A stretch of DNA of 64,000 nucleotides from Bacteroidota bacterium (lineage in GTDB: Bacteria > Bacteroidota > Bacteroidia > Chitinophagales > LD1), in contig JAFDYQ010000002.1 in assembly GCA_018267365.1 (NCBI GenBank), positions 1 through 64,000 of the forward strand. The letters are read 5' to 3'. Of the stretch, positions 27,564 to 45,571 are shown piece by piece. Within the stretch, counting starts at the first letter, position 1. Every line of letters starts with the position of its first letter. The notes under the pieces are model-generated. The model searched no databases. It was not told the DNA's origin and worked only from the letters and a program-made list of their open reading frames with translations. A program made the translations under genes and the position numbers.

Positions 27564-28298
27564 TCATAATAGCCGAGCTGCGGCAGCCCTATCTATAAAC
27601 CAATATAAACCCCCGCTACGGGGGTTTATCATTTTGGCAGGATAGGTATCATGGGCCGGAGCATCCTGTATCACGTGCTGCAGTATAGTGGCTTTAGCTT
27701 TGCCCGCCACCAGAAACAAAACTTTGTGAGCCTCATTGATGAGCGTTATGGTCATAGTGATTCGTTCCATATTTTGCGCAGGAATAAAGCCTGCTGTCAC
27801 TATAGCATCTTTCTCTTCCAACAGGGGACTATGAGGAAAGAGAGAGGCCGTATGCCCGTCGGGTCCCAGACCTAGCAATACCAGATCAAATGCAATTTCA
27901 CCTCCGGCAAAATATCGTTTGATAGTTTGCTCATATTCCCGCGCTGCCTCTTGTGCTGGCATATCTGATGGTATGCGATGTATATTACCGGGAGGGATCG
28001 AGATCTGCCTTAGCCACAGTGAAATAGCTACATGGGCATTATTACGCTCATCATCCAGCGGTACGGCACGCTCATCTCCCCAGAATATATGCACCCTGCT
28101 CCAGTCCAATGCTGTAGCATAGGGGGGGGCTGCCAGCATTCTGAAGAGACTCTCAGGAGTATTGCCACCTGATAGTACCAGGCTATACTGCCCATGCCCG
28201 GCTATCGCAGCCTGGGCATCACTGATGATAAAGTCTGCCACTCCTGTAGCAAGCGCATTATCTGACTCAAAGACTTTTATCGAACCCTTTGTAGGCAT
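27564..28298 (-). CDS. pgl: 6-Phosphogluconolactonase
   Basis: 244 residues, the normal length for the NagB-like lactonase. Motifs visible: LVLSGGNTPESLFRML near the start, HIFWGDERAVPLDDERNN in the middle, and LLGLGPDGHTASLFPHSP. It hydrolyses 6-phosphoglucono-delta-lactone, the step after glucose-6-phosphate dehydrogenase. It is the last gene of the tkt-rpiB-pgi-HAD-gnd-zwf-pgl operon and starts 10 bases after the zwf stop. The last codons (…INPRSGGLY…) form a hairpin that may end transcription of the opposing lipoprotein gene. Confidence 0.95.
   Translation of the reverse strand: MPTKGSIKVFESDNALATGVADFIISDAQAAIAGHGQYSLVLSGGNTPESLFRMLAAPPYATALDWSRVHIFWGDERAVPLDDERNNAHVAISLWLRQISIPPGNIHRIPSDMPAQEAAREYEQTIKRYFAGGEIAFDLVLLGLGPDGHTASLFPHSPLLEEKDAIVTAGFIPAQNMERITMTITLINEAHKVLFLVAGKAKATILQHVIQDAPAHDTYPAKMINPRSGGLYWFIDRAAAARLL
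27605..27629 (+). terminator. Hairpin acting as probable terminator for the lipoprotein gene, inside pgl
   Basis: ATAAACCCCCG (27605-27615), loop CTA, exact complement 27619-27629, then CATTTTGG. It lies 46 bases after the stop of the plus-strand lipoprotein gene yet within the final codons of minus-strand pgl. Confidence 0.5.
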
Positions 28299-28308
28299 AC
28301 GCTAAATA

Positions 28309-29799
28309 TTATAACCAATTGTGACCATCGCGTGCTATGAGCGCTTCTGCATCTTCCGGCCCCTGTGTACCGGCCGTATAGTTTGGAAAATTGACCGGGG
28401 GATTATTTTCCCAGACTTTGATGATCGGCATCATGACTGCCCATGCCGCCTCTACCTGATCCGCACGCATAAACAAAGTAGAATCCCCCTGCATCGTATC
28501 GAGCAGCAATGTCTCATAGGCCTCGGGCGTACCTGATGTATAGGTTTCCTTGTAGTCAAACTCCATATCTACCGGATCCAGTACCATCTCCAGTCCCGGC
28601 CTCTTGGCCTGAAAACTCAGCGTGATACCCATGTGAGGCTGTATACTCATTATCAGCCTGTTTGGCGGCCAGCTGCCGGACGCTTTGGATGGGAATAGTC
28701 TGTGAGGCACATCTTTAAACTGGATAGTGATGACAGACGTAGTCTCCTTCATACGCTTGCCTGTACGGAGATAAAACGGTACATCATGCCAGCGCCAGTT
28801 TTCGATAAAAAGTTTCACCGCTGCAAAAGTTTCTACTCTGGAGTTAGGCTTTACGTCGGCTTCCTGTCTATAACCCTTTACTTTTTTGCCTTCTATCCAG
28901 CCTTCTTTATATTGACCTCTTACTGCTACATTATGCACCTCACCTTCTGCTATCTTGCGCATCGCATTTATCACATCTACCTTCCTGTTGCGCACTTCGT
29001 TTGCCTCAAACGATACGGGTGGCTCCATAGCTATCAGACACATGAGCTGCAGGATGTGATTTTGTATCATATCCCGCAGCGCACCTGCTGTCTCATAGTA
29101 GTTGCCACGATTCTCTATACCCAGCCGCTCAGAGACCGTGATCTGCACATGGTCTATGAAATTGCGGTTCCATAGCGGCTCGAATAGCAGATTACCAAAG
29201 CGGAAGGCCAGGATATTTTGCACAGTCTCCTTGCCCAGGTAGTGATCTATACGGTATATCTGGCACTCATCATACATGGAGTGCAGTAGTTTATTGAGTT
29301 TGCGTGCGGTATCCAGGTCACGGCCAAAGGGCTTTTCGATCACTATCTTGTCGCGTTGTTTATCTCGCCCCAGTCCGGCCTGGTGGAGTTTGCGAGCTAT
29401 GATCTCAAAGAAATCCGGGGTCACGGCCATATAGAAAACATGATCCGCCTCTACCTTCCAGGCCTTTTCTATCTGGGCTATTTTTTTACTCACAGCATCA
29501 TACGTCCCTTTCTCATGTACCTCGCCCTTCTGGTATGTGATATTTTTGGCAAAACTAGCCCACTGCTTTTTATCCGCCGCGCCGCTTCGCGAAAATTGAT
29601 TGACTCCATCCAGGAGTGTTTTGCGAAATTGCAGTTCACTGATATCTCTTCTGCCCAGGCCGAGTATGGTAAACTTCTCCGGCATCCAGTTGTCCAGATA
29701 CAGGTTATATAGTGCCGGTATCAGTTTGCGCCAGGTCAGATCACCTGTAGCGCCAAAGATCACGATGATACACGGATTGACTTTTTCTTTTTCGTCCAT
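28309..29799 (-). CDS. zwf: Glucose-6-phosphate 1-dehydrogenase
   Basis: 496 residues from ATG 29799 (MDEKEK). A GTG at 29820 would overlap the gnd stop and add seven residues, so the ATG two bases after the gnd stop is preferred. The NADP-binding start FGATGDLTWRKLIPALYNLY and the active-site RIDHYLGKE are intact, followed by the usual substrate-binding part (FRFGN, FYLRTGKRM). It oxidises glucose-6-phosphate and makes NADPH. It lies in the seven-gene pentose phosphate operon between gnd and pgl. Confidence 0.96.
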   Translation of the reverse strand: MDEKEKVNPCIIVIFGATGDLTWRKLIPALYNLYLDNWMPEKFTILGLGRRDISELQFRKTLLDGVNQFSRSGAADKKQWASFAKNITYQKGEVHEKGTYDAVSKKIAQIEKAWKVEADHVFYMAVTPDFFEIIARKLHQAGLGRDKQRDKIVIEKPFGRDLDTARKLNKLLHSMYDECQIYRIDHYLGKETVQNILAFRFGNLLFEPLWNRNFIDHVQITVSERLGIENRGNYYETAGALRDMIQNHILQLMCLIAMEPPVSFEANEVRNRKVDVINAMRKIAEGEVHNVAVRGQYKEGWIEGKKVKGYRQEADVKPNSRVETFAAVKLFIENWRWHDVPFYLRTGKRMKETTSVITIQFKDVPHRLFPSKASGSWPPNRLIMSIQPHMGITLSFQAKRPGLEMVLDPVDMEFDYKETYTSGTPEAYETLLLDTMQGDSTLFMRADQVEAAWAVMMPIIKVWENNPPVNFPNYTAGTQGPEDAEALIARDGHNWL

Positions 29800-29801
29800 A
29801 G

Positions 29802-31220
29802 TTATTGTTTTTGCTCCCACTCAGTATGAAATATACCCTCGCGATCTGTACGGTGGTAGGTGTGCGCTCCAAAGAAGTCTCTCTGTGCCTGTATGAGGTT
29901 AGAAGGCATCCATCCCCGGCGATAGCTGTCATAGTATGCCAGACATGACATCATAGCCGGCATCGGTATGCCTGCCTCTACCGCCACAGACAGCACCCGG
30001 CGCATACCCTTCTGGTGCGTGTAGACCTCATGCGCCAGCTTCTCATCCAGCAGTATGCTCACCAGGTCTTTGTCCTGCGCATATGCCGCCCTGATATGCT
30101 CCAGCAGCCCTGAGCGGATAATACAGCCACCCCTCCATATTTTGGCTACTTCTTCGAGTTTCAGATCATAGCCATAGTGTTTTGAGGCCTGGTTGAGCAG
30201 AGTCATGCCCTGGGCATAGGAGATGATCATGCTAAAATAGATGGCATCTTCCAGGGCTGTGACCAGTTCCGGCCTGTCTATCTTTGCCTGCGTCTGAGGT
30301 CCTTTGAGCATCTTCTCCCCCTCGGTGCGCTGCTGCTTATCAGCCGATAGGTACCTGGCACTGAGCGCGGCATCTATGGTAGGTATAGGTACTACCAGAT
30401 CCATGGCATCCTGTGAGGTCCATTTGCCGGTACCCTTCTGCTGCGCACTATCCAGGATCATATCTATCAGCATTCCATTAGTCTTATCATCCCGCCGAGC
30501 AAATATCTCTCCTGTGATCTCTATCAGAAATGACCTGAGCTTGCCCTCATTCCATGTAGTGAATGTGGTATGCAGCTCTTGATTGCTCATACCGCCCATC
30601 TCCTTTAGAATGTGATAGGCCTCAGCTATGATCTGCATGATAGCATACTCTATACCGTTGTGCACCATCTTGACATAGTGGCCGCAAGCACCGGGTCCGA
30701 GGTAGGTCACGCAGGGTTCGTCATCCACCGTGGCAGAGACAGCCTCCAGCATCGCACCTATGCGCTCATAGGCATCCTGAGATCCGCCAGGCATGATGCT
30801 CGGACCATACCGCGCACCCATTTCTCCTCCGGAAACACCGACCCCCATAAAGTGAATATTGTCTTTAGCCAGCGCGGTGACACGCCTGTCCGTATCCGTA
30901 TAGTGGGAGTTGCCACAATCCATGATCAGGTCCTCTGCAGACAGGAGAGGTTTGAGACCCAATATGACTTTGTCCACAGCATCTCCCGCGGGCACCAGGA
31001 GCAGGATAGTACGTGGCACCTTGAGCGCATCTACAAACTCCTGCAGGCTCTCAGCTCCAAATATCTTGCGTCCTTTTCCTTCCTTTTTGAGAGAAGACAC
31101 CTTTTCAGCGTCGAGATCAAAACCGGCAACAGCATACGAATGGTCGCTCATATTCAATAACAAATTTCGCCCCATGGTGCCCAGGCCTATCATCCCATAG
31201 TCGTATTTAGCTTCTGACAT
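29802..31220 (-). CDS. gnd: 6-Phosphogluconate dehydrogenase, decarboxylating
   Basis: 472 residues, the long (dimeric) form. The N-terminus has the Rossmann loop GLGTMGRNLL. GVSGGEMGARYGPSIMPGG and KMVHNGIEYAIMQ carry the substrate-binding and catalytic residues (Lys, His, Asn). It converts 6-phosphogluconate to ribulose-5-phosphate and CO2 with NADPH formation. It starts 2 bases after the HAD phosphatase stop and ends 2 bases before zwf, a tightly packed operon that implies equimolar expression. Confidence 0.96.
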   Translation of the reverse strand: MSEAKYDYGMIGLGTMGRNLLLNMSDHSYAVAGFDLDAEKVSSLKKEGKGRKIFGAESLQEFVDALKVPRTILLLVPAGDAVDKVILGLKPLLSAEDLIMDCGNSHYTDTDRRVTALAKDNIHFMGVGVSGGEMGARYGPSIMPGGSQDAYERIGAMLEAVSATVDDEPCVTYLGPGACGHYVKMVHNGIEYAIMQIIAEAYHILKEMGGMSNQELHTTFTTWNEGKLRSFLIEITGEIFARRDDKTNGMLIDMILDSAQQKGTGKWTSQDAMDLVVPIPTIDAALSARYLSADKQQRTEGEKMLKGPQTQAKIDRPELVTALEDAIYFSMIISYAQGMTLLNQASKHYGYDLKLEEVAKIWRGGCIIRSGLLEHIRAAYAQDKDLVSILLDEKLAHEVYTHQKGMRRVLSVAVEAGIPMPAMMSCLAYYDSYRRGWMPSNLIQAQRDFFGAHTYHRTDREGIFHTEWEQKQ

Positions 31221-31222
31221 AT

Positions 31223-31840
31223 CTATATCTTAAAACCATATTTAATTAATTCTCCCCGAGTAGCGTCCAGGCTAGTGTGATGCAGGCAGCGCAGACCTAC
31301 CCTGCCTGCAGTGGGCATATAGTATGCTCTGTCGTCTATATACAGGGCACATGCAGGCTCAGTGCCTGCTATATCACAGGCCATGCGGTACATCTTTTCT
31401 TCCGGCTTGCGCATGTCTATATAGCAAGACGAAATAAAGCTATCAAACAATGAATCCAGTGCAAATTTTTCTATCCTGTACGTATTTAGCTCGCGGGGTT
31501 CATTATTGAGCGCTACGATCGGGATATTGTTCCTGGCCTTGAGATCATGAAAAAATTCAAGCGCACCGGCCAGTGCCTGCGACTGGCCAAACATAAATTC
31601 CTTAAACTGCTGTTTGGAAAAAGACCGCACCTCAAAAAAAACCAGGTAATCCAGATATTCATCTAATGTAATGCGCCCGCGCTCATAGATGTCAAATGCC
31701 ATAGCATGCCGCTTTTCCGTGTCATTTTCGTCCAGATGAAAACTCTGTATAGCCCTGCTACGCGCAGCAGTATCCCAGCCATTGGTCAATAGCACCCCCC
31801 CTACATCCAGGAAGATAGTCCGTATCTTATCTTGCCCCAT
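31223..31840 (-). CDS. HAD-family sugar-phosphatase-like protein (YihX type)
   Basis: 205 residues. Motif I is FLDVGGVL with Asp12 as nucleophile and Gly at +2 in place of the usual Asp, as in YihX-like alpha-glucose-1-phosphatases. Motif II is VALNNEPREL, motif III contains MRKPEEKMY, motif IV is YIDDR. The start overlaps the end of pgi by 14 bases. It sits inside an otherwise purely pentose phosphate operon, so its substrate is probably a hexose or pentose phosphate, perhaps glucose-1-phosphate, but this is an inference. Confidence 0.85.
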   Translation of the reverse strand: MGQDKIRTIFLDVGGVLLTNGWDTAARSRAIQSFHLDENDTEKRHAMAFDIYERGRITLDEYLDYLVFFEVRSFSKQQFKEFMFGQSQALAGALEFFHDLKARNNIPIVALNNEPRELNTYRIEKFALDSLFDSFISSCYIDMRKPEEKMYRMACDIAGTEPACALYIDDRAYYMPTAGRVGLRCLHHTSLDATRGELIKYGFKI

Positions 31841-33593
31841 TTGTCCTGCGCTTTTGCCTGATCTGTTTCATTAGCTCAGAGAGGCCATAGTCTACATCTG
31901 CACCGAGATGGATGCGTATCACTCTGCGGCCTTTATCACTGAGTGAGCGAAAATCTCCCATAGCCTGGGCATGGTGGAGTACCTCAAACCCATATGCCTC
32001 TCCCGGTATCGGCAGACTTGTCTTTTCATCTGCTGTGAGAATGATGTACAAACCGCAGTCAGGTCCACCCTTGTGCAGCTGGCCAGTGGAGTGCAGATAG
32101 CGTGGACCGTGTAGCAGCGTAGTCGCTACCTGATACTCATCCCTGATAGCCATTCGCCATGATTGCAGCATGTCTGCCCGCGTCTCGGTATGGTGAAAGT
32201 AGGGAAGCATCGCTACATAATCCCCGGGCTTGATCTCCCCGAGGAATGACTTTATAAAATCTGCTACGGAGGTTGCCGCACCATTGAGCGCTGTAGCTGC
32301 GCCACCTGTATAGATACTGATATCCTCTGCCTTGGTCACCGGGGAGGTAGTTTCTTTAAACTTCTTTGCGCTTTTCCATTCTTCCAGCAGGTTTTCTGTA
32401 TTCTTCTTGCTCTCTGCCACATTTGGCTCATCGAATGGATTGATCCCGATGATCAGGCCAGCCACGGCTGTAGCCACCTCCCAGCAGTAGTACTCCCCGC
32501 CCAGCGCTATAGGGTCCGGTATCTTTACTCTTATGACCGGGTGGCCGGCACTTTCCAGTGCATTCAGTTTTCTCATTTGTACAGCGTCCTTATCACCTGC
32601 CACGCTGATATGTATGAATATCCTGTCATTGCCGTAGACAGAAGGCGAGCCAAGCGTTTCTCCATTCACCGGTATGATCCCTTTGCCCTCCTTTCCTGTG
32701 CTCTCTGCTATGAGCTGCTCTACCCAGTAGCCAAATGCAGCGATAGACGGAGAGAGTACAAAAGTAAGTTTATCTCTGCCCATAGTCTGAGATATGCCGA
32801 TCTCAGCACCGAGGTCCAGGCCCGGGTTGGTTTCTGCGCTGCTATCACGGCAGAGTGTCTCCATCTCCGCCGCACTATGCATCATGGCAGCGATATCTAC
32901 GCCCATCAGGGCCATAGGTATGAGGCCAAAATCTGATAAGACAGAATACCTGCCGCCTATATCGGAAGGATTGATAAATACTCTCCGGAATTTATACCGC
33001 TCACCGAGCTCTGCCAGTGGTGTCCCATTGTCAGTGATGGCTATGAAATGCCCGCCTGCATTGCGCCCTGCATGGGGCCTGACTCGATCATAGAAATAAT
33101 GAAAGAAGCTCAGAGACTCTTTGGTAGTACCTGATTTACTCGCTACGATAAAAAGAGTTTTCTCCAGTTTTATCTTTTTCTCCAGCGCCTGGATCGATGC
33201 AGGATCCGTATCATCCAGCACAAATAATCTGAGGTAGCCGCGCCGCGTCACAAATGTCTCACGTGCTACCTCAGAGCACAGGCTGCTCCCGCCCATGCCC
33301 AGTAGCACCGCATATCGGAAACCCTCTTTTTGCACCTCTGTGGCAAAGGCCGTAATGTTTTCTATCCTGGTATCGGCCTGCTGTGGCAGATCCAGCCAGC
33401 CCAGGCGGTCAGCTATTTTGGCCTGAGATGCTTTATCTGACTTCCAGAGAGAAGCATCCTTCTCATAGATGCGCTCACGGATATGTTGTGTATCCAGCTG
33501 CGCGAGCGCTGTGGTTAGTTCATTTTTAAATCCGGCTACGAGATCCTGCGGACTATCTGGTATGACTGAAAAAACTTTTTTAGTGACTGGCAT
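31827..33593 (-). CDS. pgi: Glucose-6-phosphate isomerase (Tal-PGI type, without transaldolase domain)
   Basis: 588 residues. The SIS-type signatures GMGGSSLCSEV (about 99-109) and ASKSGTTKE (151-159), the later GGRYSVLSDFGL and the C-terminal LPYFHHTETR region match the isomerase half of bifunctional transaldolase/phosphoglucose isomerases (about 950 residues) better than E. coli Pgi. The N-terminal transaldolase half is absent, and no separate transaldolase gene is in the window. It interconverts fructose- and glucose-6-phosphate, feeding zwf. It is 24 bases downstream of rpiB. Confidence 0.88.
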   Translation of the reverse strand: MPVTKKVFSVIPDSPQDLVAGFKNELTTALAQLDTQHIRERIYEKDASLWKSDKASQAKIADRLGWLDLPQQADTRIENITAFATEVQKEGFRYAVLLGMGGSSLCSEVARETFVTRRGYLRLFVLDDTDPASIQALEKKIKLEKTLFIVASKSGTTKESLSFFHYFYDRVRPHAGRNAGGHFIAITDNGTPLAELGERYKFRRVFINPSDIGGRYSVLSDFGLIPMALMGVDIAAMMHSAAEMETLCRDSSAETNPGLDLGAEIGISQTMGRDKLTFVLSPSIAAFGYWVEQLIAESTGKEGKGIIPVNGETLGSPSVYGNDRIFIHISVAGDKDAVQMRKLNALESAGHPVIRVKIPDPIALGGEYYCWEVATAVAGLIIGINPFDEPNVAESKKNTENLLEEWKSAKKFKETTSPVTKAEDISIYTGGAATALNGAATSVADFIKSFLGEIKPGDYVAMLPYFHHTETRADMLQSWRMAIRDEYQVATTLLHGPRYLHSTGQLHKGGPDCGLYIILTADEKTSLPIPGEAYGFEVLHHAQAMGDFRSLSDKGRRVIRIHLGADVDYGLSELMKQIRQKRRTNGAR

Positions 33594-33617: not shown

Positions 33618-34070
33618 TCATTTCATATTCTCATTCTCTATGCGTGTTATCTTGCCTACACGCCGCATGTGCCGCTCTGCACCACTAAATTTTGCCCCCA
33701 GGAAAGCCTCTGTCACCTCAAACATCAGCTCCACTCCTATCACCCTCTGTCCCAGGCACAGCACATTGGCATCATCATGCTCTACGCACTGATGAGCAGA
33801 GTAAGTGTCATGGCAAACGCCGGCGCGTATACCTTTAAATTTATTAGCAGCTATACTCACGCCTACTCCGCTACCACATATCAGTATACCCCGCTCACAC
33901 TGCCCCGCCATTATGGCCTCGGCCATATGTGCCGCATGGTCAGGATAATCTGATGGCTGTGTATCATAGGCCCCTAGGTCATTGACCTCATGGCCGGCCT
34001 TTAGGAGGACGGGGATCAGAAGCTTCTTGTAGTCAAAGCCCGCATGATCAGATGCGATAGCAACTTTCAT
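33618..34070 (-). CDS. rpiB: Ribose-5-phosphate isomerase B
   Basis: 150 residues from ATG 34070. A longer in-frame region upstream lies inside tkt and is not used. Motifs: ASDHAGFDYK at the start (Asp8, His9), CGSGVGVSIAANK with the active-site Cys65, and CLGQRVIG. It interconverts ribose- and ribulose-5-phosphate. Its ATG overlaps the tkt TGA as ATGA, so translation is coupled to tkt. Confidence 0.95.
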   Translation of the reverse strand: MKVAIASDHAGFDYKKLLIPVLLKAGHEVNDLGAYDTQPSDYPDHAAHMAEAIMAGQCERGILICGSGVGVSIAANKFKGIRAGVCHDTYSAHQCVEHDDANVLCLGQRVIGVELMFEVTEAFLGAKFSGAERHMRRVGKITRIENENMK

Positions 34071-36115
34071 TTCACCATCATTTTTTTCGCAATGCTTACG
34101 ATATGCTCTGGCGTCAGTCCATAGTGCCGGAAGAGCTCTTCCGCCGGCGCACTGGCTCCAAATTTTGAAATACCTACTACACGTCCTCTCTCTCCCACCC
34201 ACTCTTCCCAGCCCTGTGGCGAACCGGCCTCTATGGCTATACGCGCCGTGACAGATGGCGGCAGGACCGAATGGCGGTACTCCTCCGGCTGCTGCCGGAA
34301 TATCTCCCAACTGGGCATACTGACCACACGGGCATTGATCTCACTCTTCAGCAGCTGCTGCTGTGCCTCCATCGCGATCTGCACCTCAGACCCTGTGGCT
34401 ATGAGTATCACATCCGGTGGTGAGGGCTCTTCCTTTTCACCGGCTCGGTATAGCATCATCGTCTGCTCAGGTGATATGACATAAGCTCCCAGCAGCAGAC
34501 CGCTGGCTGCACCGGTTTTGCTACGGTCAAAAATCGGTAGCTTTTGACGCGATAGCACCAGCATAGTGGGACCCGCTTTGCGCTCTATAGCCGCCTGCCA
34601 GGCATACATCGCCTCATTGGCATCTGCCGGGCGTATCAGGCACATATGCGGCATAGCGCGAAAGGATGCCAGGTGCTCTATAGGCTGGTGTGTGGTGCCA
34701 TCCTCACCGAGGCCTATGGAGTCATGCGTCATGACGTAGACTACCGGTAGCTCCATGATACAGGCCAGTCGGATAGCAGGGCGTGCATAGTCTGTGAAGA
34801 TGAAGAAGGTAGAGGCATAGGACCGCACTCCTCCATGCAGTGCCAGGCCGGAGCTGGCGGCGCACATCACATGCTCCCTCACCCCCCAGGCTATATTTCT
34901 ATTCTCGTACTGTCCGGCGGCAAAATAGCCGGAGGTCTTGATCATAGTATCCGTAGATGGCTCCAGATCCCCACTGCCTCCTATCACCCATGGTAGCTTG
35001 CCGGCTATAGCCTTGATCACATCTGCTGTCACCGAGCGTGTAGCCTTGGGACCATCTCCCGGCTGGTAGGTGGGCATGGCAGCACTCCAGTCATCGGGTA
35101 GTGTCTGATCCATATACTGACGGTATAGTTTTGCCTCAGCCGGATATTTCTCCTGATAGTCAGCCAGCATTTTTTCCCATTGCGCCTGATCGGCTTTGCC
35201 CTTATCTACCGCCTGCCGCATATGAGCGGCTACATCATCCGGCACCAGAAATTTCGCATCTTCGGGCCATCCGTAAAATTGCTTGGTCAGCCTTACTTCT
35301 TCTTCACCCAGCGGTGAGCCGTGTGCAGATGCCTTATCTTGCTTATGCGGAGACCCATATCCTATATGTGTGCGCAGGATGATCATGGTGGGCCTGTCAG
35401 TAGTTTTCTTGGCCTCGTCATAGGCAGCTGATATCGCTGCTATATCATTTCCTTTATCTCCCAGGTCTATCACGTGCCAGTGATAGGCTACGAAGCGTTT
35501 TGCTACGTCATCAGAATAGGTGAGGGCTGTATCACCCTCTATTGAGATATGATTATCGTCATAGAGGCAGATCAGCTTGCCCAATCTGAGGTGGCCGGCC
35601 AGAGATCCGGCCTCGTGAGATGCCCCCTCCATCAGATCTCCATCGCTACAAAAGACATAGGTATAGTGATCGATGATATTGTAGCCATCTCTATTGAATA
35701 TAGCTGCGAGATGAGCCTCGGCCATAGCCATGCCCACAGCAGTCATGATACCCTGGCCCAGCGGGCCTGTAGTGGTCTCGATACCGGGAGTGAGGCGATA
35801 CTCGGGGTGCCCTGGGGTGATACTTCCCCATTGCCGGAAGTTCTTGATGTCCTCCAGAGTGACAGCATAGCCTGTCAGGTGTAGCATAGCATACTGTAGC
35901 ATGGAGGCGTGACCGTTAGATAGTATGAAGCGGTCCCTATTGGCCCAGTGAGGATCTGTAGGATTGAAGCGCATATGATGCATCCAGAGCGCATATGCGG
36001 CGGGAGCCAGAGCCATAGGAGTACCGGGATGCCCCGAGTTTGCCTTTTGCACAGCATCTATAGCGAGGCATCTGATGGTATTAATGCTCTTATTGTCTAG
36101 TGGGGTTTCATTCAT
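34067..36115 (-). CDS. tkt: Transketolase
   Basis: 682 residues, full length. The thiamine-pyrophosphate binding region CSDGDLMEGASHEAGSLAGH ... YDDNHISIEG is present, preceded by HPEYRLTPGIETTTGPLGQG. The pyrimidine-domain GVREHVM and DSIGLGEDGTTHQPIEH follow. It transfers two-carbon units between pentose, triose and hexose phosphates. It is the first gene of the seven-gene minus-strand operon, and the region 36116-36292 divides it from the divergently transcribed glucan synthase. Confidence 0.96.
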   Translation of the reverse strand: MNETPLDNKSINTIRCLAIDAVQKANSGHPGTPMALAPAAYALWMHHMRFNPTDPHWANRDRFILSNGHASMLQYAMLHLTGYAVTLEDIKNFRQWGSITPGHPEYRLTPGIETTTGPLGQGIMTAVGMAMAEAHLAAIFNRDGYNIIDHYTYVFCSDGDLMEGASHEAGSLAGHLRLGKLICLYDDNHISIEGDTALTYSDDVAKRFVAYHWHVIDLGDKGNDIAAISAAYDEAKKTTDRPTMIILRTHIGYGSPHKQDKASAHGSPLGEEEVRLTKQFYGWPEDAKFLVPDDVAAHMRQAVDKGKADQAQWEKMLADYQEKYPAEAKLYRQYMDQTLPDDWSAAMPTYQPGDGPKATRSVTADVIKAIAGKLPWVIGGSGDLEPSTDTMIKTSGYFAAGQYENRNIAWGVREHVMCAASSGLALHGGVRSYASTFFIFTDYARPAIRLACIMELPVVYVMTHDSIGLGEDGTTHQPIEHLASFRAMPHMCLIRPADANEAMYAWQAAIERKAGPTMLVLSRQKLPIFDRSKTGAASGLLLGAYVISPEQTMMLYRAGEKEEPSPPDVILIATGSEVQIAMEAQQQLLKSEINARVVSMPSWEIFRQQPEEYRHSVLPPSVTARIAIEAGSPQGWEEWVGERGRVVGISKFGASAPAEELFRHYGLTPEHIVSIAKKMMVK

Positions 36116-36269
36116 GGCAGGACGTTTAGCGCTCTGAAAAGATAGTGGAGTTATTCCTTTTCATCAAATCCCATTCCAAGCGCAGCACTTTAACACATCT
36201 TCCGGCTTTGATATCATTCTCATTAGATTGGCATGACTTTTTAAAAATAATAATGATTCACCTTCTCAT

Positions 36270-36277
36270 TAATTTTG
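36270..36277 (+). promoter_or_regulatory. Possible -7 box of the glucan synthase gene
   Basis: TAATTTTG matches TANNTTTG. A -33 TTTG is not evident; only a T-rich run is present upstream. Transcription would start near 36284, about 9 bases before the ATG at 36293. Confidence 0.35.
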
Positions 36278-36292
36278 TTCTACCCACGTCTG

Positions 36293-39200
36293 ATGAAACT
36301 TACTTTTGCAGGAAATATTTTCGAGCAGCAGACTGTCACCGAGGAACCGCTGCGCAGAGAGCTTTATAGCTCGGAGCAGATGGAGCAGCACGCCAAATCA
36401 CTGGCAGCCTCGCACCAGATCAGCCCAAAGGGCAGCGAAGACCGCCTGCTGGGGCGGCTGGCAGATAATGAACATCTGCTGCTGGAGGTACACGCCCTCC
36501 TCACCCAAACCGTCAAAAAGCAATATCAGATCACGCCTGCAGGCGAATGGCTACTGGACAATTTCTACCTCATAGAGGAGCAGATACAAATAGCCAAAAA
36601 GCATCTGCCTAAGCTCTATAGCGAGGGCTTGCCACAACTTTCTAAAGGCCCCTCCGCCGGATTGCCGCGAGTGTATGATATAGCGCTGGAGATAGTATCT
36701 CATAGCGACGGCAGGCTCGATATGGAGACTGTATATAGCTTTCTGCGGGCTTATCAGACCGTCACGCACCTGCGTATAGGAGAGCTGTGGGGAGTACCGA
36801 TCATGCTACGCCTCGCGCTGCTGGAGAATCTGCGCCGTGTCTCTGCCTCTATAGCAGCCGAGCGCATACATCGCAATGAGGCAGACTACTGGTCTAAACT
36901 CATGCTCGATACTATAGAAAGCAAACCTCGCGACCTGATACTGGTGATAGCGGATATGGCACGCTCCAATCCACCACTCCAGAGGTCGTTTGTAGCTGAG
37001 ATCACGCGCCAGCTCAGAGGCAAGGGGCCGAGCGTAGCGCAGGCCCTCACATGGCTGGAGGACCGCCTCTCGGAGAGCGGGTATACCAGTGATGAGCTGG
37101 TACAAGAGGAAAACCAGAAACAAGCTGCAGACCAGCTGTCCGTGAGCAATGCCATCAATAGCCTCCGCTCTCTCGGTACAATGGACTGGCGGGAATTTGT
37201 AGAGTCCAATAGTATCGTAGAGCAGACACTGCGTGCAGATCCAGTCTATGTACAGATGGATTTCTTTACGAGAGATAAATATCGCCACGTGGTGGAAGCT
37301 ATTGCCGAGCAATCTGACAAGTCTGAGCTAGAAGTAGCTAAGATCGCCTTGTCACTGGCTGCCAATGAGGGTACCGGCGGCAGGACCTCTCATGTAGGCT
37401 ACTATCTGATAGACAAAGGACTGCATAGGACTGAGAAACTAGCCGCCCGGAAAATAAGTATAGCAGAGCAGGTAAGGCGCCTGCTGGCGCGGCATCCGCT
37501 CTCAGCTTATCTCACTCCCATCTTTCTGATCACTGCGGGGGTCACTGCTGCCATCACTTATGAGGTGTGGAGACTCCAGCCGGAGAAACTCACACAGATC
37601 ATCGTATTTGGCATCGTAGCTTTCATCTCCGCCAGTCAGCTGGCCGTAGCTCTGGTCAATTTTATCTGTACACTGACCGTAAGACCCGACGCACTGCCCC
37701 GTATGGACTATGAGGAGCGTATACCTGATACTGCCGCTACACTGGTGGCTGTGCCATGCATGATCACCAGCATGGCAGAGATAGAGCGGCTGGCAGAGGC
37801 TCTCGAAGTCAGATACCTGGCCAATCAGGATCACAATCTCTATTATGCATTGCTATCAGACCTCAAGGATGCTGATAAGGAACACCTGAGTGAAGATGAC
37901 GAACTGATCAGCCACGCAGTAGAATGTATAGAAAAGCTGAATAAGAAATACCATCACACCAAGCACGATATATTCTTTCTTCTCCATCGGCCCCGACTGT
38001 GGAATCCAGTAGAGAAAAAGTGGATGGGGTATGAACGGAAGAGAGGTAAGCTCTCTGACCTGAATCATCTGCTGCGTGGTCAGGGTCGTGACAGGTTTTC
38101 TACTATCGCCGGAGACATGGAGGCCCTGCAGCAAATAGCCTATGTACTCACACTGGATGCAGACACGCAGCTACCACGGGATAGCGCCTGGAAGATCATC
38201 GCTACCATGGCCCACCCGCTCAATAAAGCCGTGTATGACCCTGATCAGAAGCGCGTGACCGAGGGGTATGGTATACTCCAGCCCAGGGTATCTACCAGTA
38301 TGCCGCGCGAGGATAGCTCGCGCTACGCGCATATGAATGGTAATGAGCCCGGCATAGACCCATATACGCGCCTGACCTCAGACGTGTATCAGGATCTGTT
38401 TCACCAGGGTTCGTTTATAGGCAAGGGGCTTTATGATATAGATATATTTGAGAAGACACTGGACAATCGGTTTCCGGAAAACCGCATCCTGAGCCATGAC
38501 CTGCTGGAGGGCTGCTATACGAGGTCCGGACTGCTCACTGATGTGCAGCTCTACGAGAAATACCCCGCACTCTACAGCACGGATATGAAACGGCGCCACC
38601 GCTGGATACGCGGAGACTGGCAGATAGCCGCCTGGTGCCTGCCCTGGGTACCCGATGCCAGGCACAAATGGCATAAAAATCCGTTGGATGCATTGTCTCG
38701 CTGGAAGATATTTGACAATCTCCGCAGGAGCCTTTTCCCTCCTGCTGTCACGGCCCTCATCATACTCAGCTGGCTGCTGCTGCCGGATGCCGGCTGGTGG
38801 ACACTCATTGTGACAGGCATCATCATCCTGCCCGGATTGCTCAGCAATTTCTGGAGTCTGCTGCACAAACCAAAGGATGTCATCCTACTGCACCATGTCA
38901 TCGTGTCCGGGCGCTCTGCCGGCAATGCCGCCGTGAGCGCTATGTTTGGCGCGATATGCCTGCCCTATGAGGCATTTATGAATCTCGATGCCATCCTGCG
39001 CTCCTGCTGGCGCATGCTCATATCGCGGCGCCACCTGCTCGAGTGGAATCCCTCAGGCTTCGCAGAGCTATCAGCTACCAATAGCCTTGCCGGTTCTTAC
39101 CTCTCCATGATGCTCGAGCCACTGACAGCGATAGCTGTCACGGTATACCTGAGTATCAGAGCTTCACACGCACTCTATATAGCAGGACCGATCATCGCAC

Positions 39201-42200
39201 TATGGCTCACAGCCCCTCTTATTACCTGGTTTGTGAGCCAGCCCGTAGCACGCAAACTGGCAGAGCTGACGTATGAGCAAACCATCTTTCTCCAGAAGCT
39301 CACCCGCAAGACCTGGGCCTTCTTTGATGAACTCGTCAATGCTGATGATAATTGGCTACCACCTGACAACTTTCAGGAACAACCCGTGTCTGCCATAGCT
39401 CACCGGACGTCGCCCACCAATATCGGCCTGTCGCTCCTGGCGTCCCTCACTGCGTTTGATTTCAGCTATATCACCCTGAGTGAAATGCTGGATAGGACAG
39501 GTGGTACTTTCAGCTCACTACAGAAAATGGAACGCTTTCACGGGCATCTGTACAACTGGTACGATACGCAAACGCTCACCCCCCTCCGGCCAAGGTATAT
39601 ATCCTCAGTAGATAGCGGCAACTTTGGAGGCCACCTGCTCACACTCCGGCAGGGCCTGCTGGCTATACCCGACCAGCAGGTCATAGGCGAAAACCTGTTT
39701 GAAGGCCTGCGCAATACCCTACGTATACTGGCAGATACGGTACACAAAAGAGACTTTGCAGTGCTGAAAGAATTTAAAACAGAGCTGGAGACCATATGCA
39801 GTGCTCAGCCGGCTACGCTCTATGATACGCGCATAGCGCTGGAGCGCCTGCTGGCAAAATACGCCAACGTATCCAGGTATCTGCAGACTGATGATGCCAG
39901 CAAAACGCACTACTGGAAGAAGGCACTCGAAACTCAGATCACAGCCCCGCTGGAAGAGATGAAAAAGCTCACGCCGTGGGTATTTCTCTCACTCCCGGCA
40001 GATGTCATGGCTACTATACCTATACCAGCCATACCTACACTCAGAGAGATCGCCAGGCTATCCCTGTCTACTGCGCATCATAGTGAGCAGCCCTGGTTTG
40101 ACTCCTACAATACAGCTGTCGCAACTGGCAGCGATCAGGCCAAGGCCTTCATAGCTGCTACGGAGTACCTGGCAGGCCAGTGCTCTGAGTTTGCTGATAT
40201 GGAGTGGGACTTCCTCTATGATAAAAATAAGCGGCTGCTCACTATAGGGTACAATGCTGATGAGCATCGTATGGACAGCAGCTTCTATGATCTCCTGGCC
40301 TCAGAGGCCCGCCTCACTGTTTTTCTGGCTATAGCACAGGGCAAGATACCTCAGGAGAGCTGGTTTGCACTGGGCCGGCTGATCGTAAATGTAAATGGCA
40401 ACCCTATATTGCTCTCATGGAGTGGATCCATGTTTGAGTATCTGATGCCCATGCTGGTCATGCCGAGTTTTGACAAAACACTCATCAACCAGACCGATAA
40501 AACCAGCGTGCAACGCCAGATACAGTATGGCAAAGAGCGGGGAGTGCCATGGGGCATATCAGAGAGCGGCTACAATATGATAGACGCTGCCCAGAATTAT
40601 CAATATAAAGCATTTGGAGTGCCCGGGCTCGGGCTGAAGCGCGGGCTCGGAGAAGATCTGGTCATAGCGCCATATGCATCTGTCATGGCCCTCATGGTCT
40701 CCCCGGAGCGGGCATGCACCAATCTACAGCAGATGGCTACCATGGGATTTGAGGGTAAGTACGGCATGTATGAAGCTGTAGATTATACCCCATCGCGATT
40801 GCCGCGCGGCCAGTCGTTTGCCCTGGTGCAGTCATACATGGCCCACCATCAGGGTATGAGCCTGCTCTCCCTGTCCTATCTGCTGCTAGGCCAGCCTATG
40901 CAGAGGCGCTTTGAGGCGGAGCCACAGTTTCAGGCCACCATGCTGCTGCTGGAGGAGCGCATACCAAAGGCTACCTCCTACTACGCTCATACTACCGATA
41001 CCGCAGATGCCCACTCTATAGTGAGCGGCTCTGAGGTGAGGATCATACGCAATCCGAATACCGCTGTGCCGGAGGTACAGCTCCTCTCCAATGGCAACTA
41101 TCATGTAATGGTAACCAACGCCGGAGGCGGCTATAGCAAGTGGAAGAATCTGGCTGTGACCAGGTGGCGCGAAGACAGTACGTCTGACAACTGGGGCACT
41201 TTCTGCTACGTACGTGACCTCGAGACAGGTACCTACTGGTCTACGGCTCATCAGCCCACACTGCGCAAAAGCAAGTACTATGAGGCTGCCTTCTCTCAAG
41301 GCCGCGCAGACCTGCGCGACAGGCAGCAAGATATAGAGATGCACACTGAGATAGTAGTTTCTCCGGAGGATGATATCGAGATGCGTCGGCTATATCTGAT
41401 CAATAGATCTGGCCGCAGGAAAGTACTGGACATCACCAGTTATGCTGAGGTGGTCATAGCACCTCCGGCTGCTGATGCGTCACACCCGGCCTTCAGCAAT
41501 CTATTTGTACAGACCGAGATCCTGAAAGGGCAAAACGCGATCATCTGTACACGCCGTCCACGCGGAGCGAATGACAAAGAACCGTGGATGTTTCACATGA
41601 TGAAGGTGCACGGCACAAAGCCTGCTGAGACTTCTTATGAGACAGACAGGATGCAGTTTCTGGGTCGTGGCAATACAGTGGCCAATCCCAGAGCGATGAC
41701 CTCTGCAGATCCGCTGTCGGGTAGTCAGGGGCCGGTGCTGGACCCTATAGTTTCCATCCGATATCAGATAGTACTCGAGGAAGATGAGACTGTGACTGTA
41801 GATATGCTGCTCGGTATAGCAGATACACGTGAGGGCTGTCAAGGCCTGATAGATAAATATCAGGACAAGCATCACAAAGACCGTGTGTTTGAGCTGGCCT
41901 GGACACATAATCAGGTAGTGCTGCGCCAGATCAATGCCTCAGAAGCAGAGGCGCAGCTATACAGCCGCCTGGCTGGATCTGTACTGTATATGAATCCCGC
42001 ACTGCGTGCAGAGCCAGCTACACTGATCAAGAACCGCAAGGGGCAGTCAGGGCTCTGGCCGTACTCTATATCGGGCGATCTGCCCATAGTGCTCCTGCGT
42101 GTAGGTGAGAATGCCAACATAGACCTGATCCGGCAGCTGATACAGGCGCATACCTTCTGGCGGATGAAAGGACTGCTTGTAGACCTTGTGATCTGGAATG

Positions 42201-44872
42201 AAAGCCACGGCGGCTACCGCCAGTCACTGCAAAACCAGATCACCAGCCTGATAGCTGGCAAAACTACCGAGCAGTCCGGTGGCATCTTTGTGCGCGGCGC
42301 AGATCAGGTACCCGCGGAGGATACAGTGCTGATGCAGACAGTAGCACGGATCTGCATCTCCAGTGCGGACAACTCGCTACTGGAGTTTATCAATCGCAAG
42401 GTACCGGGCAAGGCGACTATCCCCTACCTGATACCTACCTATGCACACCAGCCTGCAGATGAGCCGGGCCTGACAGCAGAGCCACTGATATTTGACAATG
42501 GCTATGGTGGCTTCTCATCTGATGCGAGGGAGTATATCATAGACATTGCACCAGGCAAAATCACTCCCGCACCATGGGTGAATGTATTGGCCAATCCGGA
42601 CTTTGGCACACTGATATCTGAGAGTGGTCAATGCTACACATGGAGCGAAAACGCCCATGAGTACCGCCTGACTCCATGGGCCAATGACGCCGTGAGCGAT
42701 CAGGGGGGAGAGGCATTTTACATCCGTGATGAAGAAACCGGATACTATTGGTCGCCTCTGCCTATACTGTCAGACATCAAAGCTCCGTACAGAGTGAGAC
42801 ATGGCTTTGGCTATAGCGTGTTTGAGCATACTGAGGCAGGCATACAGTCTGAGGTATGGGTATATGTAGATCTGGCTGCTACGATCAAGTTTACCGTGAT
42901 CAAGGTGAAAAACATCTCAGGCCGTATGAGAAAACTATCAGTGACAGGCTATACAGAGTGGGTACTGGGGGAGCTGCGCCCCAAGACCTCGATGTACATT
43001 TCTACAGAGGTCGATACTGATACCGGCGCCATCCTGGCGAGAAACCCATACAGTATGGAGTTTTCTGACCGGGTGGCCTTCTTTGATACAGATGAAGTCA
43101 ACAGAAGCTATACCGGTAGCCGCACCGAGTTTCTGGGTAGAAACTCTACCATACAGCAGCCTGACGCCATGTCCAGACTGCGCCTCTCCGGCAAAACAGG
43201 GGTGGGCATTGATCCATGTGCGGCTATCCAGGTCACCTTTGACCTGAGCGAATACCAGAGCAAAGATGTGGCGTTTCGCCTCGGCGCTGGCAAGCACCAT
43301 GCAGATGCAGTCAATACTATCAGACAGTTCAAAGGCAAAGATATGGCTGCCGAGGCACTGGAGAAGGTGCGCGACTATTGGGCGCACGCTATCTCTGCTG
43401 TGCAGCTGCAGACCCCTGATCAGTCTATCAACACGATGGCCAATGGATGGCTGGTGTATCAGGTACTCTCCAGCCGCGTGTGGGCGCGCAGTGGCTTCTA
43501 TCAGTCGGGTGGTGCGTTTGGATTTCGCGATCAGCTGCAGGATATCATGGCCCTGCTCTACACAGAGCCCTCACTGGCCAGAAAGCAGATCTTGCTCCAT
43601 GCATCGAAGCAATTCAAAGAGGGGGATGTGCTGCACTGGTGGCATCCGCCTGTAGGGCGCGGTGTGCGCACACGCTGCTCTGATGACTACCTGTGGCTGC
43701 CCTTTGTGACGGAGAGGTATGTACGCTGTACAGGGGATACATCCATACTCGATGAGACGGTCGCCTTTATAGAGGGACGCGCGCTGAACACAGGTGAAGA
43801 GTCTAACTATGACCTCCCGGTGGTATCTGGCGAGTCTGCCTCACTCTATGAGCACTGCCTGCGTGCTATACACCATGGCATGCGCTATGGTCAGCATGGA
43901 TTGACACTGATGGGTACCGGCGACTGGAACGATGGTATGGATCAGGTGGGCAAAGAGGGCAAAGGTGAGAGCGTCTGGTTGAGCTTCTTCCTCTTTGATG
44001 TATTGAGCAGATTCACAGCCGTGGCTCGCATGCGCGGAGATGACGAGTTTGCCGCAGTATGTGACAAGGAAGCAGCGCTACTGCGAGAGAACATAGATAA
44101 GAACGCCTGGGATGGAGAGTGGTACAGGCGGGCCTACTTTGATGACGGGTCGCCGCTGGGCTCTGCTACTAACCCAGAGTGCAAGATAGACTCTATAGCC
44201 CAGAGCTGGTCAGTGATCTCCGGCGCTGCTGAGGGAGAGCGCCGGGAGAGGGCCCTTGACGCGGCCTATCAGTACCTGGTGAGCCGGCACGAGGGCCTGA
44301 TCAAGCTGCTCGATCCACCCTTTGACCAGTCAGGGCTGGAGCCGGGGTACATCAAAGGATACCTGCCGGGCATACGCGAGAATGGCGGCCAGTACACCCA
44401 TGCAGCACTGTGGCTGATCATAGCCTTTGCCGAGCTGGGCAGGAATGACCGCGTGGCAGAGCTGCTGGCCATGATCACCCCACTGAACCATGGCAAGGAT
44501 GCTACCCATATAGCCACATACAAGGTGGAGCCCTACGTGATAGCGGGCGATGTCTATGCCGGTGCGCACCTGGGGCGTGGCGGCTGGACCTGGTACAGCG
44601 GCTCTGCGGGATGGTTCTACAGGCTGATCATAGAGTACGTAGTGGGCCTGCGCAAGGAAGGCGACCAGCTGCGCTTCCGCCCATGTGTGCCGGACGACTG
44701 GCAGTCCTTCCATCTGCAGTACCGCTATGGCGCGACCACGTACACCATCGCCTTTACCAACAAGGGTAAGACTGTGAAGGCAATCTCTCTGGATGGTACT
44801 GATCAGCCGGAGCAAGTCATCACCCTGACGGACGATGGCCGGGAGCACCGCGTAGAGGTAGCGCTCGGTTGA
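36293..44872 (+). CDS. Cyclic beta-1,2-glucan synthase-like protein (NdvB/ChvB family)
   Basis: 2859 residues from ATG 36293 (MKLTFAGN); an earlier TTG adds only six residues. Membrane segments are at about 400-462, 812-855 and 930-982. A GT84-type glycosyltransferase domain carries LDADTQLPRD (DxD at Asp622-Asp624) and a GDW motif further on. A glucoamylase-like domain follows (about 1300-1540), then two GH94-type carbohydrate-binding modules. The C-terminal GH94-like phosphorylase domain has MGTGDWNDGMDQVG with the likely acid Asp2544. In rhizobia such enzymes make and size cyclic beta-1,2-glucans for osmotic adaptation and host interaction. It is divergent from tkt; glucose units could come from UDP-glucose tied to the same hexose pool. 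Confidence 0.9.
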   Translation: MKLTFAGNIFEQQTVTEEPLRRELYSSEQMEQHAKSLAASHQISPKGSEDRLLGRLADNEHLLLEVHALLTQTVKKQYQITPAGEWLLDNFYLIEEQIQIAKKHLPKLYSEGLPQLSKGPSAGLPRVYDIALEIVSHSDGRLDMETVYSFLRAYQTVTHLRIGELWGVPIMLRLALLENLRRVSASIAAERIHRNEADYWSKLMLDTIESKPRDLILVIADMARSNPPLQRSFVAEITRQLRGKGPSVAQALTWLEDRLSESGYTSDELVQEENQKQAADQLSVSNAINSLRSLGTMDWREFVESNSIVEQTLRADPVYVQMDFFTRDKYRHVVEAIAEQSDKSELEVAKIALSLAANEGTGGRTSHVGYYLIDKGLHRTEKLAARKISIAEQVRRLLARHPLSAYLTPIFLITAGVTAAITYEVWRLQPEKLTQIIVFGIVAFISASQLAVALVNFICTLTVRPDALPRMDYEERIPDTAATLVAVPCMITSMAEIERLAEALEVRYLANQDHNLYYALLSDLKDADKEHLSEDDELISHAVECIEKLNKKYHHTKHDIFFLLHRPRLWNPVEKKWMGYERKRGKLSDLNHLLRGQGRDRFSTIAGDMEALQQIAYVLTLDADTQLPRDSAWKIIATMAHPLNKAVYDPDQKRVTEGYGILQPRVSTSMPREDSSRYAHMNGNEPGIDPYTRLTSDVYQDLFHQGSFIGKGLYDIDIFEKTLDNRFPENRILSHDLLEGCYTRSGLLTDVQLYEKYPALYSTDMKRRHRWIRGDWQIAAWCLPWVPDARHKWHKNPLDALSRWKIFDNLRRSLFPPAVTALIILSWLLLPDAGWWTLIVTGIIILPGLLSNFWSLLHKPKDVILLHHVIVSGRSAGNAAVSAMFGAICLPYEAFMNLDAILRSCWRMLISRRHLLEWNPSGFAELSATNSLAGSYLSMMLEPLTAIAVTVYLSIRASHALYIAGPIIALWLTAPLITWFVSQPVARKLAELTYEQTIFLQKLTRKTWAFFDELVNADDNWLPPDNFQEQPVSAIAHRTSPTNIGLSLLASLTAFDFSYITLSEMLDRTGGTFSSLQKMERFHGHLYNWYDTQTLTPLRPRYISSVDSGNFGGHLLTLRQGLLAIPDQQVIGENLFEGLRNTLRILADTVHKRDFAVLKEFKTELETICSAQPATLYDTRIALERLLAKYANVSRYLQTDDASKTHYWKKALETQITAPLEEMKKLTPWVFLSLPADVMATIPIPAIPTLREIARLSLSTAHHSEQPWFDSYNTAVATGSDQAKAFIAATEYLAGQCSEFADMEWDFLYDKNKRLLTIGYNADEHRMDSSFYDLLASEARLTVFLAIAQGKIPQESWFALGRLIVNVNGNPILLSWSGSMFEYLMPMLVMPSFDKTLINQTDKTSVQRQIQYGKERGVPWGISESGYNMIDAAQNYQYKAFGVPGLGLKRGLGEDLVIAPYASVMALMVSPERACTNLQQMATMGFEGKYGMYEAVDYTPSRLPRGQSFALVQSYMAHHQGMSLLSLSYLLLGQPMQRRFEAEPQFQATMLLLEERIPKATSYYAHTTDTADAHSIVSGSEVRIIRNPNTAVPEVQLLSNGNYHVMVTNAGGGYSKWKNLAVTRWREDSTSDNWGTFCYVRDLETGTYWSTAHQPTLRKSKYYEAAFSQGRADLRDRQQDIEMHTEIVVSPEDDIEMRRLYLINRSGRRKVLDITSYAEVVIAPPAADASHPAFSNLFVQTEILKGQNAIICTRRPRGANDKEPWMFHMMKVHGTKPAETSYETDRMQFLGRGNTVANPRAMTSADPLSGSQGPVLDPIVSIRYQIVLEEDETVTVDMLLGIADTREGCQGLIDKYQDKHHKDRVFELAWTHNQVVLRQINASEAEAQLYSRLAGSVLYMNPALRAEPATLIKNRKGQSGLWPYSISGDLPIVLLRVGENANIDLIRQLIQAHTFWRMKGLLVDLVIWNESHGGYRQSLQNQITSLIAGKTTEQSGGIFVRGADQVPAEDTVLMQTVARICISSADNSLLEFINRKVPGKATIPYLIPTYAHQPADEPGLTAEPLIFDNGYGGFSSDAREYIIDIAPGKITPAPWVNVLANPDFGTLISESGQCYTWSENAHEYRLTPWANDAVSDQGGEAFYIRDEETGYYWSPLPILSDIKAPYRVRHGFGYSVFEHTEAGIQSEVWVYVDLAATIKFTVIKVKNISGRMRKLSVTGYTEWVLGELRPKTSMYISTEVDTDTGAILARNPYSMEFSDRVAFFDTDEVNRSYTGSRTEFLGRNSTIQQPDAMSRLRLSGKTGVGIDPCAAIQVTFDLSEYQSKDVAFRLGAGKHHADAVNTIRQFKGKDMAAEALEKVRDYWAHAISAVQLQTPDQSINTMANGWLVYQVLSSRVWARSGFYQSGGAFGFRDQLQDIMALLYTEPSLARKQILLHASKQFKEGDVLHWWHPPVGRGVRTRCSDDYLWLPFVTERYVRCTGDTSILDETVAFIEGRALNTGEESNYDLPVVSGESASLYEHCLRAIHHGMRYGQHGLTLMGTGDWNDGMDQVGKEGKGESVWLSFFLFDVLSRFTAVARMRGDDEFAAVCDKEAALLRENIDKNAWDGEWYRRAYFDDGSPLGSATNPECKIDSIAQSWSVISGAAEGERRERALDAAYQYLVSRHEGLIKLLDPPFDQSGLEPGYIKGYLPGIRENGGQYTHAALWLIIAFAELGRNDRVAELLAMITPLNHGKDATHIATYKVEPYVIAGDVYAGAHLGRGGWTWYSGSAGWFYRLIIEYVVGLRKEGDQLRFRPCVPDDWQSFHLQYRYGATTYTIAFTNKGKTVKAISLDGTDQPEQVITLTDDGREHRVEVALG

Positions 44873-45175: not shown

Positions 45176-45571
45176 ATGCCACGCAAACTTCTACTAGCCG
45201 TACTCCTTCTCTCTCTGATCATAGAGGTGGGCCTGAGCCTGGGTATTTTCTTTGCCAAGGACCTGGTGTCGAAGCAATTTGGTGTGGTGCTCACACCCGA
45301 CACGGACTTTCTCAGCTATATAGTGGGGTGGCTGTGCTGCTTTCTCTCACTGATCCTCTGTCTGGCCATCTATGAGCTGTGGCACCACGACCGGCACTAT
45401 ATCATGCTGTGCTACCTGCTGGGCTACTTCTGGATGGCTATAGGGATAGCGATCTATGTGGGCTACCAGCGCACGGACAATCTCTTCATAGATACGCTGA
45501 AGGGGCTGGTGATAGTGGGGCTGACGCGCTGGGCCTCGCAGCGGATACCACCGGTGGCAGAGATAGGGTAG
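45176..45571 (+). CDS. Four-helix membrane protein, hypothetical
   Basis: 131 residues with membrane segments at about 5-25, 45-65, 75-96 and 105-120, and two His in the loop between helices 2 and 3 (ELWHHDRHY). No signal peptide or known motif. Stands alone between the glucan synthase gene and the convergent ZIP gene. Family not recognised. Confidence 0.65.
   Translation: MPRKLLLAVLLLSLIIEVGLSLGIFFAKDLVSKQFGVVLTPDTDFLSYIVGWLCCFLSLILCLAIYELWHHDRHYIMLCYLLGYFWMAIGIAIYVGYQRTDNLFIDTLKGLVIVGLTRWASQRIPPVAEIG

Follow-up and report, generated by a model that had tools for sequence, protein, structure and literature searches.

Does the long open reading frame (ORF) at positions 36293–44872 of contig JAFDYQ010000002.1 (Bacteroidota bacterium, assembly GCA_018267365.1) encode a complete cyclic β-1,2-glucan synthase (Cgs), and what does its location next to a pentose phosphate operon imply? 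The stretch of DNA analyzed here, referred to as the window, comprises the first 64,000 nucleotides of this contig. Characterized Cgs enzymes come largely from Proteobacteria, and an earlier note on this DNA had read the frame as a 2859-residue glucan synthase of the NdvB/ChvB type. That reading is borne out by our analysis, and we consider it very probable, judging from the sequence, that the window gene encodes a complete Cgs that builds rings of β-1,2-linked glucose.

The gene, hereafter cgs, runs for 2859 codons without a stop from an ATG at 36293 to 44872 on the + strand (the program-called ORF opens upstream, at a TTG at 36275), and is present in a single copy, with one match in the 4.6-Mb genome (E ≤ 0.001; completeness 97%). 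The frame is not a product of chance, because of its length together with Pfam GH94 matches (2e-166 and 7.4e-127) and a match with E = 0 to the Agrobacterium Cgs in two stretches. The genome is Bacteroidota-like by its type IX secretion system sorting tails (TIGR04183), with 263 candidates, of which 150 were scored and 150/150 match; this model has matches in 2/14 control genomes, and above its cut-off in one.

Comparison with solved structures by phmmer returned the Agrobacterium Cgs (8rf0/8rf9, E = 0; for 8rf0 the matched stretches are residues 48–1120 and 1302–2835), the cyclization domain of the Thermoanaerobacter italicus enzyme (TiCGS; 8wy1, E = 1e-127), and also GH94 cellobiose and related phosphorylases. 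A 19-residue Kyte–Doolittle scan, which is a simple predictor only, gives six hydropathy peaks above 1.6, matching the number of transmembrane (TM) helices in the Agrobacterium enzyme, with predicted segments 1–2 at 37499–37654 (residues 403–454), 3–4 at 38729–38845 (residues 813–851), and 5–6 at 39101–39226 (residues 937–978). Between the first two pairs lies a GT84/GT2-like glycosyltransferase (GT) region with approximate borders (37730–38692, about residues 480–800), assigned from alignments and conservation and containing D523, D622/D624, D736, and R770-W771, as well as the putative glucan-primer tyrosine Y691 (38363–38365) in a GIDPY motif. The GH189 cyclization/transglycosylation domain follows at 39269–40969 (residues 993–1559), as indicated by the 8wy1 match, the residue map, conservation, and PF10091, which spans part of it. 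Pfam counts two GH94 β-supersandwich stretches, the better at 41066–41815 (residues 1592–1841), and the protein ends in a cellobiose-phosphorylase-like GH94 half (42506–44869, residues 2072–2859; Pfam, structures, and residues D2413 and D2547), the catalytic domain of which occupies residues 2362–2785 (PF17167, 7.4e-127). The DxD motif, membrane segments, and phosphorylase domains listed in the earlier note are thus all recovered, as D622/D624, the six hydropathy peaks, and PF17167 with D2413 and D2547.

We transferred published residues to the window Cgs by counting along alignments. In the GT region, D622, D624, and D736 correspond to D624, D626, and D739 of the Agrobacterium tumefaciens enzyme (Atu), Y691 to its Y694, and D523 and R770 to D527 and R773, with D523 and R770 invariant in seven sequences including that of the window. 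The roles of the GT residues and the function of Y694 as primer are given in PMC10901819, which also describes six TM segments and names mutants of D2393 and D2528, the equivalents of window D2413 and D2547 in the GH94 domain. In the GH189 domain, E1338, E1382, E1424, H1518, and H1519 correspond to TiCGS E1356, E1400, E1442, H1536, and H1537, of which, according to PMC10834661, E1356 is the acid/base, E1442 the nucleophile, and the other three supporting residues. A tyrosine stands at the primer position in 81/81 full-length rows of our alignment, and the 13 tallied positions are invariant in 81/81. As the catalytic residues that we mapped are all present, the full cycle of priming, elongation, trimming, and cyclization is to be expected.

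By transfer from the Agrobacterium and Thermoanaerobacter enzymes, we infer the activity, product, topology, export, and osmotic role of the window Cgs as follows. The GT84 domain would place one glucose on its own Y691 and lengthen this primer from UDP-glucose through β-1,2 bonds, the GH94 domain would shorten the chain by phosphorolysis, giving back glucose-1-phosphate, and the GH189 domain, using E1424 as its nucleophile and E1338 as its acid/base, would cut the chain and circularize the freed piece into a ring of approximately 17–25 glucoses. As in the Agrobacterium enzyme, the soluble domains are expected on the cytoplasmic side, and the finished ring would be exported by a transporter. 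The enzyme class, the domains, and a β-1,2-glucan product are strongly supported at the level of sequence.

Several points nevertheless weigh against this reading. No NCBIfam model gives the window Cgs a name. The invariance test is not wholly independent, as the 81 full-length rows are what remained of 98 after removal of 17 under 2700 aa, and E1382 and D2547 were partly selected for, lying inside the patterns (MFEYLMP and GDWNDGM) with which 65 named rows were fetched; the remaining 11 of the 13 invariant positions lie outside these patterns. The comparison with TiCGS covers catalytic and supporting residues, as distinct from substrate-binding ones (e.g., W1109, W1394, and Y1456), and ring size could differ in an enzyme with the same domains. 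Finally, the model for the ChvA/NdvA exporter, TIGR01192, has 36 matches in the genome and 0 above its cut-off (best match 290.3 bits vs 585.4). Since such sub-cut-off ATP-binding cassette (ABC) matches also occur in 14/14 control genomes, we claim no exporter, and the candidate of ChvA type was dropped. The periplasmic glucan proposed in the earlier note does not hold to the same extent as the enzyme, in that delivery to the periplasm is an assumption and would need an exporter. A search for an OpgGH-type pathway (MdoG/OpgG, PF04349) gave 0 matches in the genome, E. coli being the only positive among the 14 controls.

The earlier note had allowed for a cyclic or a linear β-1,2-glucan; the linkage agrees with our analysis, but leaving the form open was too cautious, as the GH189 domain, which it did not name, favors a cyclic product. 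Because both the nucleophile and the acid/base of this domain are in place, a ring is likelier than a linear chain, and we regard release of a linear β-1,2-glucan, without rings, as improbable: the mapped catalytic and supporting GH189 residues are kept throughout the 81 rows, and the genome has no further PF10091 match to cut rings (other glucanase families, including GH162, GH192, GH193, and GH194, were not searched). It is still less probable that this is a GT84–GH94 machine forming a different linkage, or mainly a phosphorylase releasing glucose-1-phosphate, even though the GH94 members in the phmmer list span several linkages and a Xanthomonas GH94 protein labeled NdvB is tabled in PMC8950772 as a cellobionic acid phosphorylase, since the window protein matches the Agrobacterium Cgs over nearly its full length and retains the primer tyrosine, the GT residues, and the GH189 domain. 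That the gene was acquired and is now decayed or not expressed is scarcely credible, for although cgs is patchy in the window's family (f1), being found in 11/29 sampled relatives, and the match in genome G013 is divided among frames and across two contigs, the frames in G004, G005, G006, G015, and G014 are free of stops (94, 86, 74, 63, and 60% identity) with the 13 tallied residues kept, which implies selection.

Turning from the Cgs itself to its distribution, we took as named loci the best 80 of at least 596 contig stretches; at least 592 of these stretches encode a relative of some part of the query, which need not be a full Cgs. Frames of 2700 aa or more occur at 65/80 named loci, from more than ten phyla, including Pseudomonadota, Nitrospirota, Elusimicrobiota, Ignavibacteriota, Spirochaetota, Planctomycetota, Verrucomicrobiota, Chloroflexota, Bacillota, Myxococcota, Gemmatimonadota, and Bacteroidota, as read from record titles, which can give the wrong organism for metagenome bins. 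When Bacteroidota were sampled evenly, 25/392 genomes (including the window's own) match the GT–GH189 part at E ≤ 1e-50, and 17 of these 25 come from family f44. The wider GH189-containing clan is widely spread in bacteria (PMC12102758). The presence of a Cgs in a Bacteroidota is therefore not surprising, and the taxonomic argument of the earlier note is weak: that NdvB/ChvB enzymes are best known from Proteobacteria applies to the characterized enzymes and not to the family. We found no paper on Cgs in Bacteroidota, or on Cgs with pentose phosphate genes, in a search whose coverage of subscription literature is thin and which is not proof of absence.

A FastTree phylogeny of the GT–GH189 part in the 81 rows, which leans toward sequences close to the window because the named loci are the best 80, places the window in a clade of 10 rows (local support 99) comprising family f1, Terrimonas, UBA1947, and two of the three f20 sequences; its neighbors in the tree are rows from Myxococcota and Thermodesulfobacteriota. 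A second, separate clade (support 100) is made up of six rows from f44, f74, and f12 and includes G040, which is from the same order as the window; the remaining f20 sequence and f40 fall elsewhere. In a 46-row tree, both Bacteroidota groups are again split by a supported branch, and an approximately unbiased (AU) test rejects a grouping of all 15 of their rows to the exclusion of the remaining 31 (p = 6.5e-5). As a caveat, this group was chosen after the first tree, and in the 46-row group table clades A and B are counted solely against one another. The Bacteroidota Cgs enzymes do not fall into a single clade, and several acquisitions are suggested; the simplest reading is that there was more than one transfer, either into the phylum or inside it.

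The genomic surroundings of cgs were also described correctly in the earlier note as a divergent pentose phosphate operon. On the − strand lie tkt (transketolase, 34067–36115; TIGR00232, 853.5 bits, cut-off 682.25), rpiB (ribose-5-phosphate isomerase B, 33618–34070; a domain from residue 81 of a longer ORF), phosphoglucose isomerase (PGI, 31827–33593; PF00342, 72.7 bits, cut-off 22), a HAD-family hydrolase (31223–31840; no model up to its cut-off), and, each by a profile match, gnd (6-phosphogluconate dehydrogenase, 29802–31220), zwf (glucose-6-phosphate dehydrogenase, 28309–29820), and pgl (6-phosphogluconolactonase, 27564–28298). The PGI matches NF007080 at positions 389–947 only (669.7 bits, under the cut-off of 712) and resembles the C-terminal part of a bifunctional transaldolase/PGI. 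G017 carries a fused 953-aa transaldolase/PGI (L177:4330-7191), and a separate transaldolase match is found on contig C66 of the window's genome; in the window lineage, such a fusion may have come apart or had one half replaced. Downstream of cgs, a 131-aa ORF (45176–45571, +) has 86–88% identity to counterparts in G004 and G005, and a Pfam search with it gave no match.

The 177-base region that the earlier note placed between cgs and tkt corresponds to 36116–36292, between the two starts. It contains TTGGCATGA at 36228–36236 and TAATGATT at 36251–36258, with 20 bp between TTG and TA, which may together form the cgs promoter. GGCATGA is kept in five genus members, as TTGGCATGA in four and CTGGCATGA in G006, and the TA...ATT element 3′ of it is TAATGATT in the window and variable in the other members; the combination resembles a Bacteroidota −33/−7 promoter. 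A sigma-54 reading of the GGCATGA stretch was dropped, as no −12 GC was seen, and an Rfam scan of 35900–36500 gave no match at gathering score.

The divergent cgs–tkt pair is found in the window's genus in the window's own genome, G001, G004, G005, and G006; both cgs and zwf are absent from G002, of the same genus (96% complete). In G014 and G015, which belong to genus g3, cgs precedes tkt and shares its strand, and the run continues with rpiB, pgi, HAD, gnd, zwf, and pgl, so that adjacency is constant and relative strand differs between genera. Among 29 f1 relatives, nine have cgs and zwf, two cgs alone (G001, 77% complete, and G006, where the contig stops inside gnd), two zwf alone (G017 and G020), and 16 neither (Fisher p = 2.5e-4, or 0.003 in 21 genomes at least 90% complete, uncorrected for kinship). 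The distribution of cgs in f1 is thus uneven, and the gene tends to go with the oxidative pentose phosphate operon. Three genomes run counter to this: in G040, from another family, cgs is present and zwf is missing, and in G048 and G058 it is zwf that is present and cgs that is missing. The tkt of the window's operon (E ≤ 1e-150) occurs in 6/22 genomes including the window's own, with a full-length cgs in 6/6; at this threshold it was not found in G013, G025, or G040, which do have cgs. Physical linkage alone could explain the co-occurrence of tkt and cgs; cgs and zwf are on separate contigs in G013 and G025. The G013 cgs (L160:1362-7771) is interrupted, giving ORFs of 1717 and 417 aa, with its end on another contig, through decay or sequencing error, and G017, without cgs, has a GH92 glycoside hydrolase gene (L177:1506-3722) upstream of rpiB in place of tkt. 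A general linkage of cgs and pentose phosphate genes in other phyla is unsupported: searching flanks of at most 10 kb, many ended by the contig, with the window proteins (E ≤ 1e-8) found it in only 3 of 80 named loci, namely, two Collimonas (tkt and a 6-phosphogluconate dehydrogenase-like gene) and Rhodanobacter (zwf and pgi).

A second neighbor is α-phosphoglucomutase (pgm), which in G014 and G015 immediately precedes cgs and points the same way (L017:8530-10185 and L016:7752-9398), giving one co-directional run of pgm, cgs, and the pentose phosphate operon; in the window's genome, pgm is on contig C26, and the window itself therefore lacks the arrangement. A pgm of the g3 type lies within 10 kb of cgs in 6/80 named loci (two Collimonas, Dyella, Rhodanobacter, Burkholderia, and a Gemmatimonadota, where the Pfam-checked pgm starts 5 bp past the end of the cgs match). 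With at most one such gene per genome in 23 searched (E ≤ 1e-100; none in seven), the 1.065 Mb of flanks at the 80 loci would contain approximately 0.15–0.30 pgm by chance, and at 0.30 the Poisson probability is 7e-7 for six loci and 2.5e-4 for four (counting separate families), for an association that was spotted after the fact. Precursor supply offers a natural reason for this proximity, because the pscA/exoC phosphoglucomutase is involved in β-1,2-glucan synthesis in Agrobacterium relatives (PMC4051167). Clustering flanking ORFs at 99 loci (some f1 genomes entering twice, and with one representative annotated per cluster) ranks a Crp-like regulator first (11), then transketolase and GGDEF/EAL (8 each), and pgm fourth (7). 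In proteobacterial flanks (e.g., L056:5839-6897 and L041:828-2915), the Crp-like helix-turn-helix cluster occurs at 11/80 named loci and GGDEF/EAL at 8/80, hinting at regulatory control of cgs. At f44 loci, one flank cluster recurs in 4/4 examined (L165:16787-17971, L166, L169, and L170), its L165 representative being a response regulator–CheB methylesterase.

These neighborhoods raise the possibility, which we put forward tentatively and think rather doubtful, that the window's family joins the synthesis of cyclic glucan to the glucose-6-phosphate node (pgm and the oxidative pentose phosphate pathway) in a single module that is inherited and regulated together. In such a module, pgm would turn glucose-6-phosphate into glucose-1-phosphate for UDP-glucose, which Cgs would polymerize, and the glucose-1-phosphate returned by GH94 would run back via pgm and zwf to NADPH; if true, this would link the ring glucan to redox or stress metabolism besides osmolarity. 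The recurrent pgm and pentose phosphate neighborhood thus yields a concrete hypothesis coupling precursor supply to glucan synthesis, and it is in this gene context that the mild novelty of the locus lies. The enzyme is of a known kind, and our understanding of Cgs is unchanged by it; what the window gene adds is a well-conserved Bacteroidota branch of the family, in a phylum that holds separate Cgs lineages.

The closest known systems include the Cgs homologues of Terrimonas pollutisoli (L037) and Bacteroidetes UBA1947 (L049), which belong to the same Bacteroidota clade (55% and 58% identity) but, unlike the window, showed no pentose phosphate genes in their fetched flanks. Thermoanaerobacter italicus, source of the founding GH189 enzyme, is a thermophile of another phylum, and the 8wy1 chain is the cyclization domain alone (596 aa); nevertheless, its nucleophile and acid/base, together with the supporting Glu and the two His, all have counterparts in the window Cgs. 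The Agrobacterium tumefaciens Cgs/ChvB (8rf0 and 8rf9) is from another phylum as well, has 2818 aa against 2859, and differs from the window in that here cgs is divergent from a pentose phosphate operon and has no clear ChvA exporter, but the two share the order of N-terminal domain, GT84, cyclization domain (GH189), and GH94, the six TM segments, the primer tyrosine, and the catalytic residues of both the glycosyltransferase and the phosphorylase.
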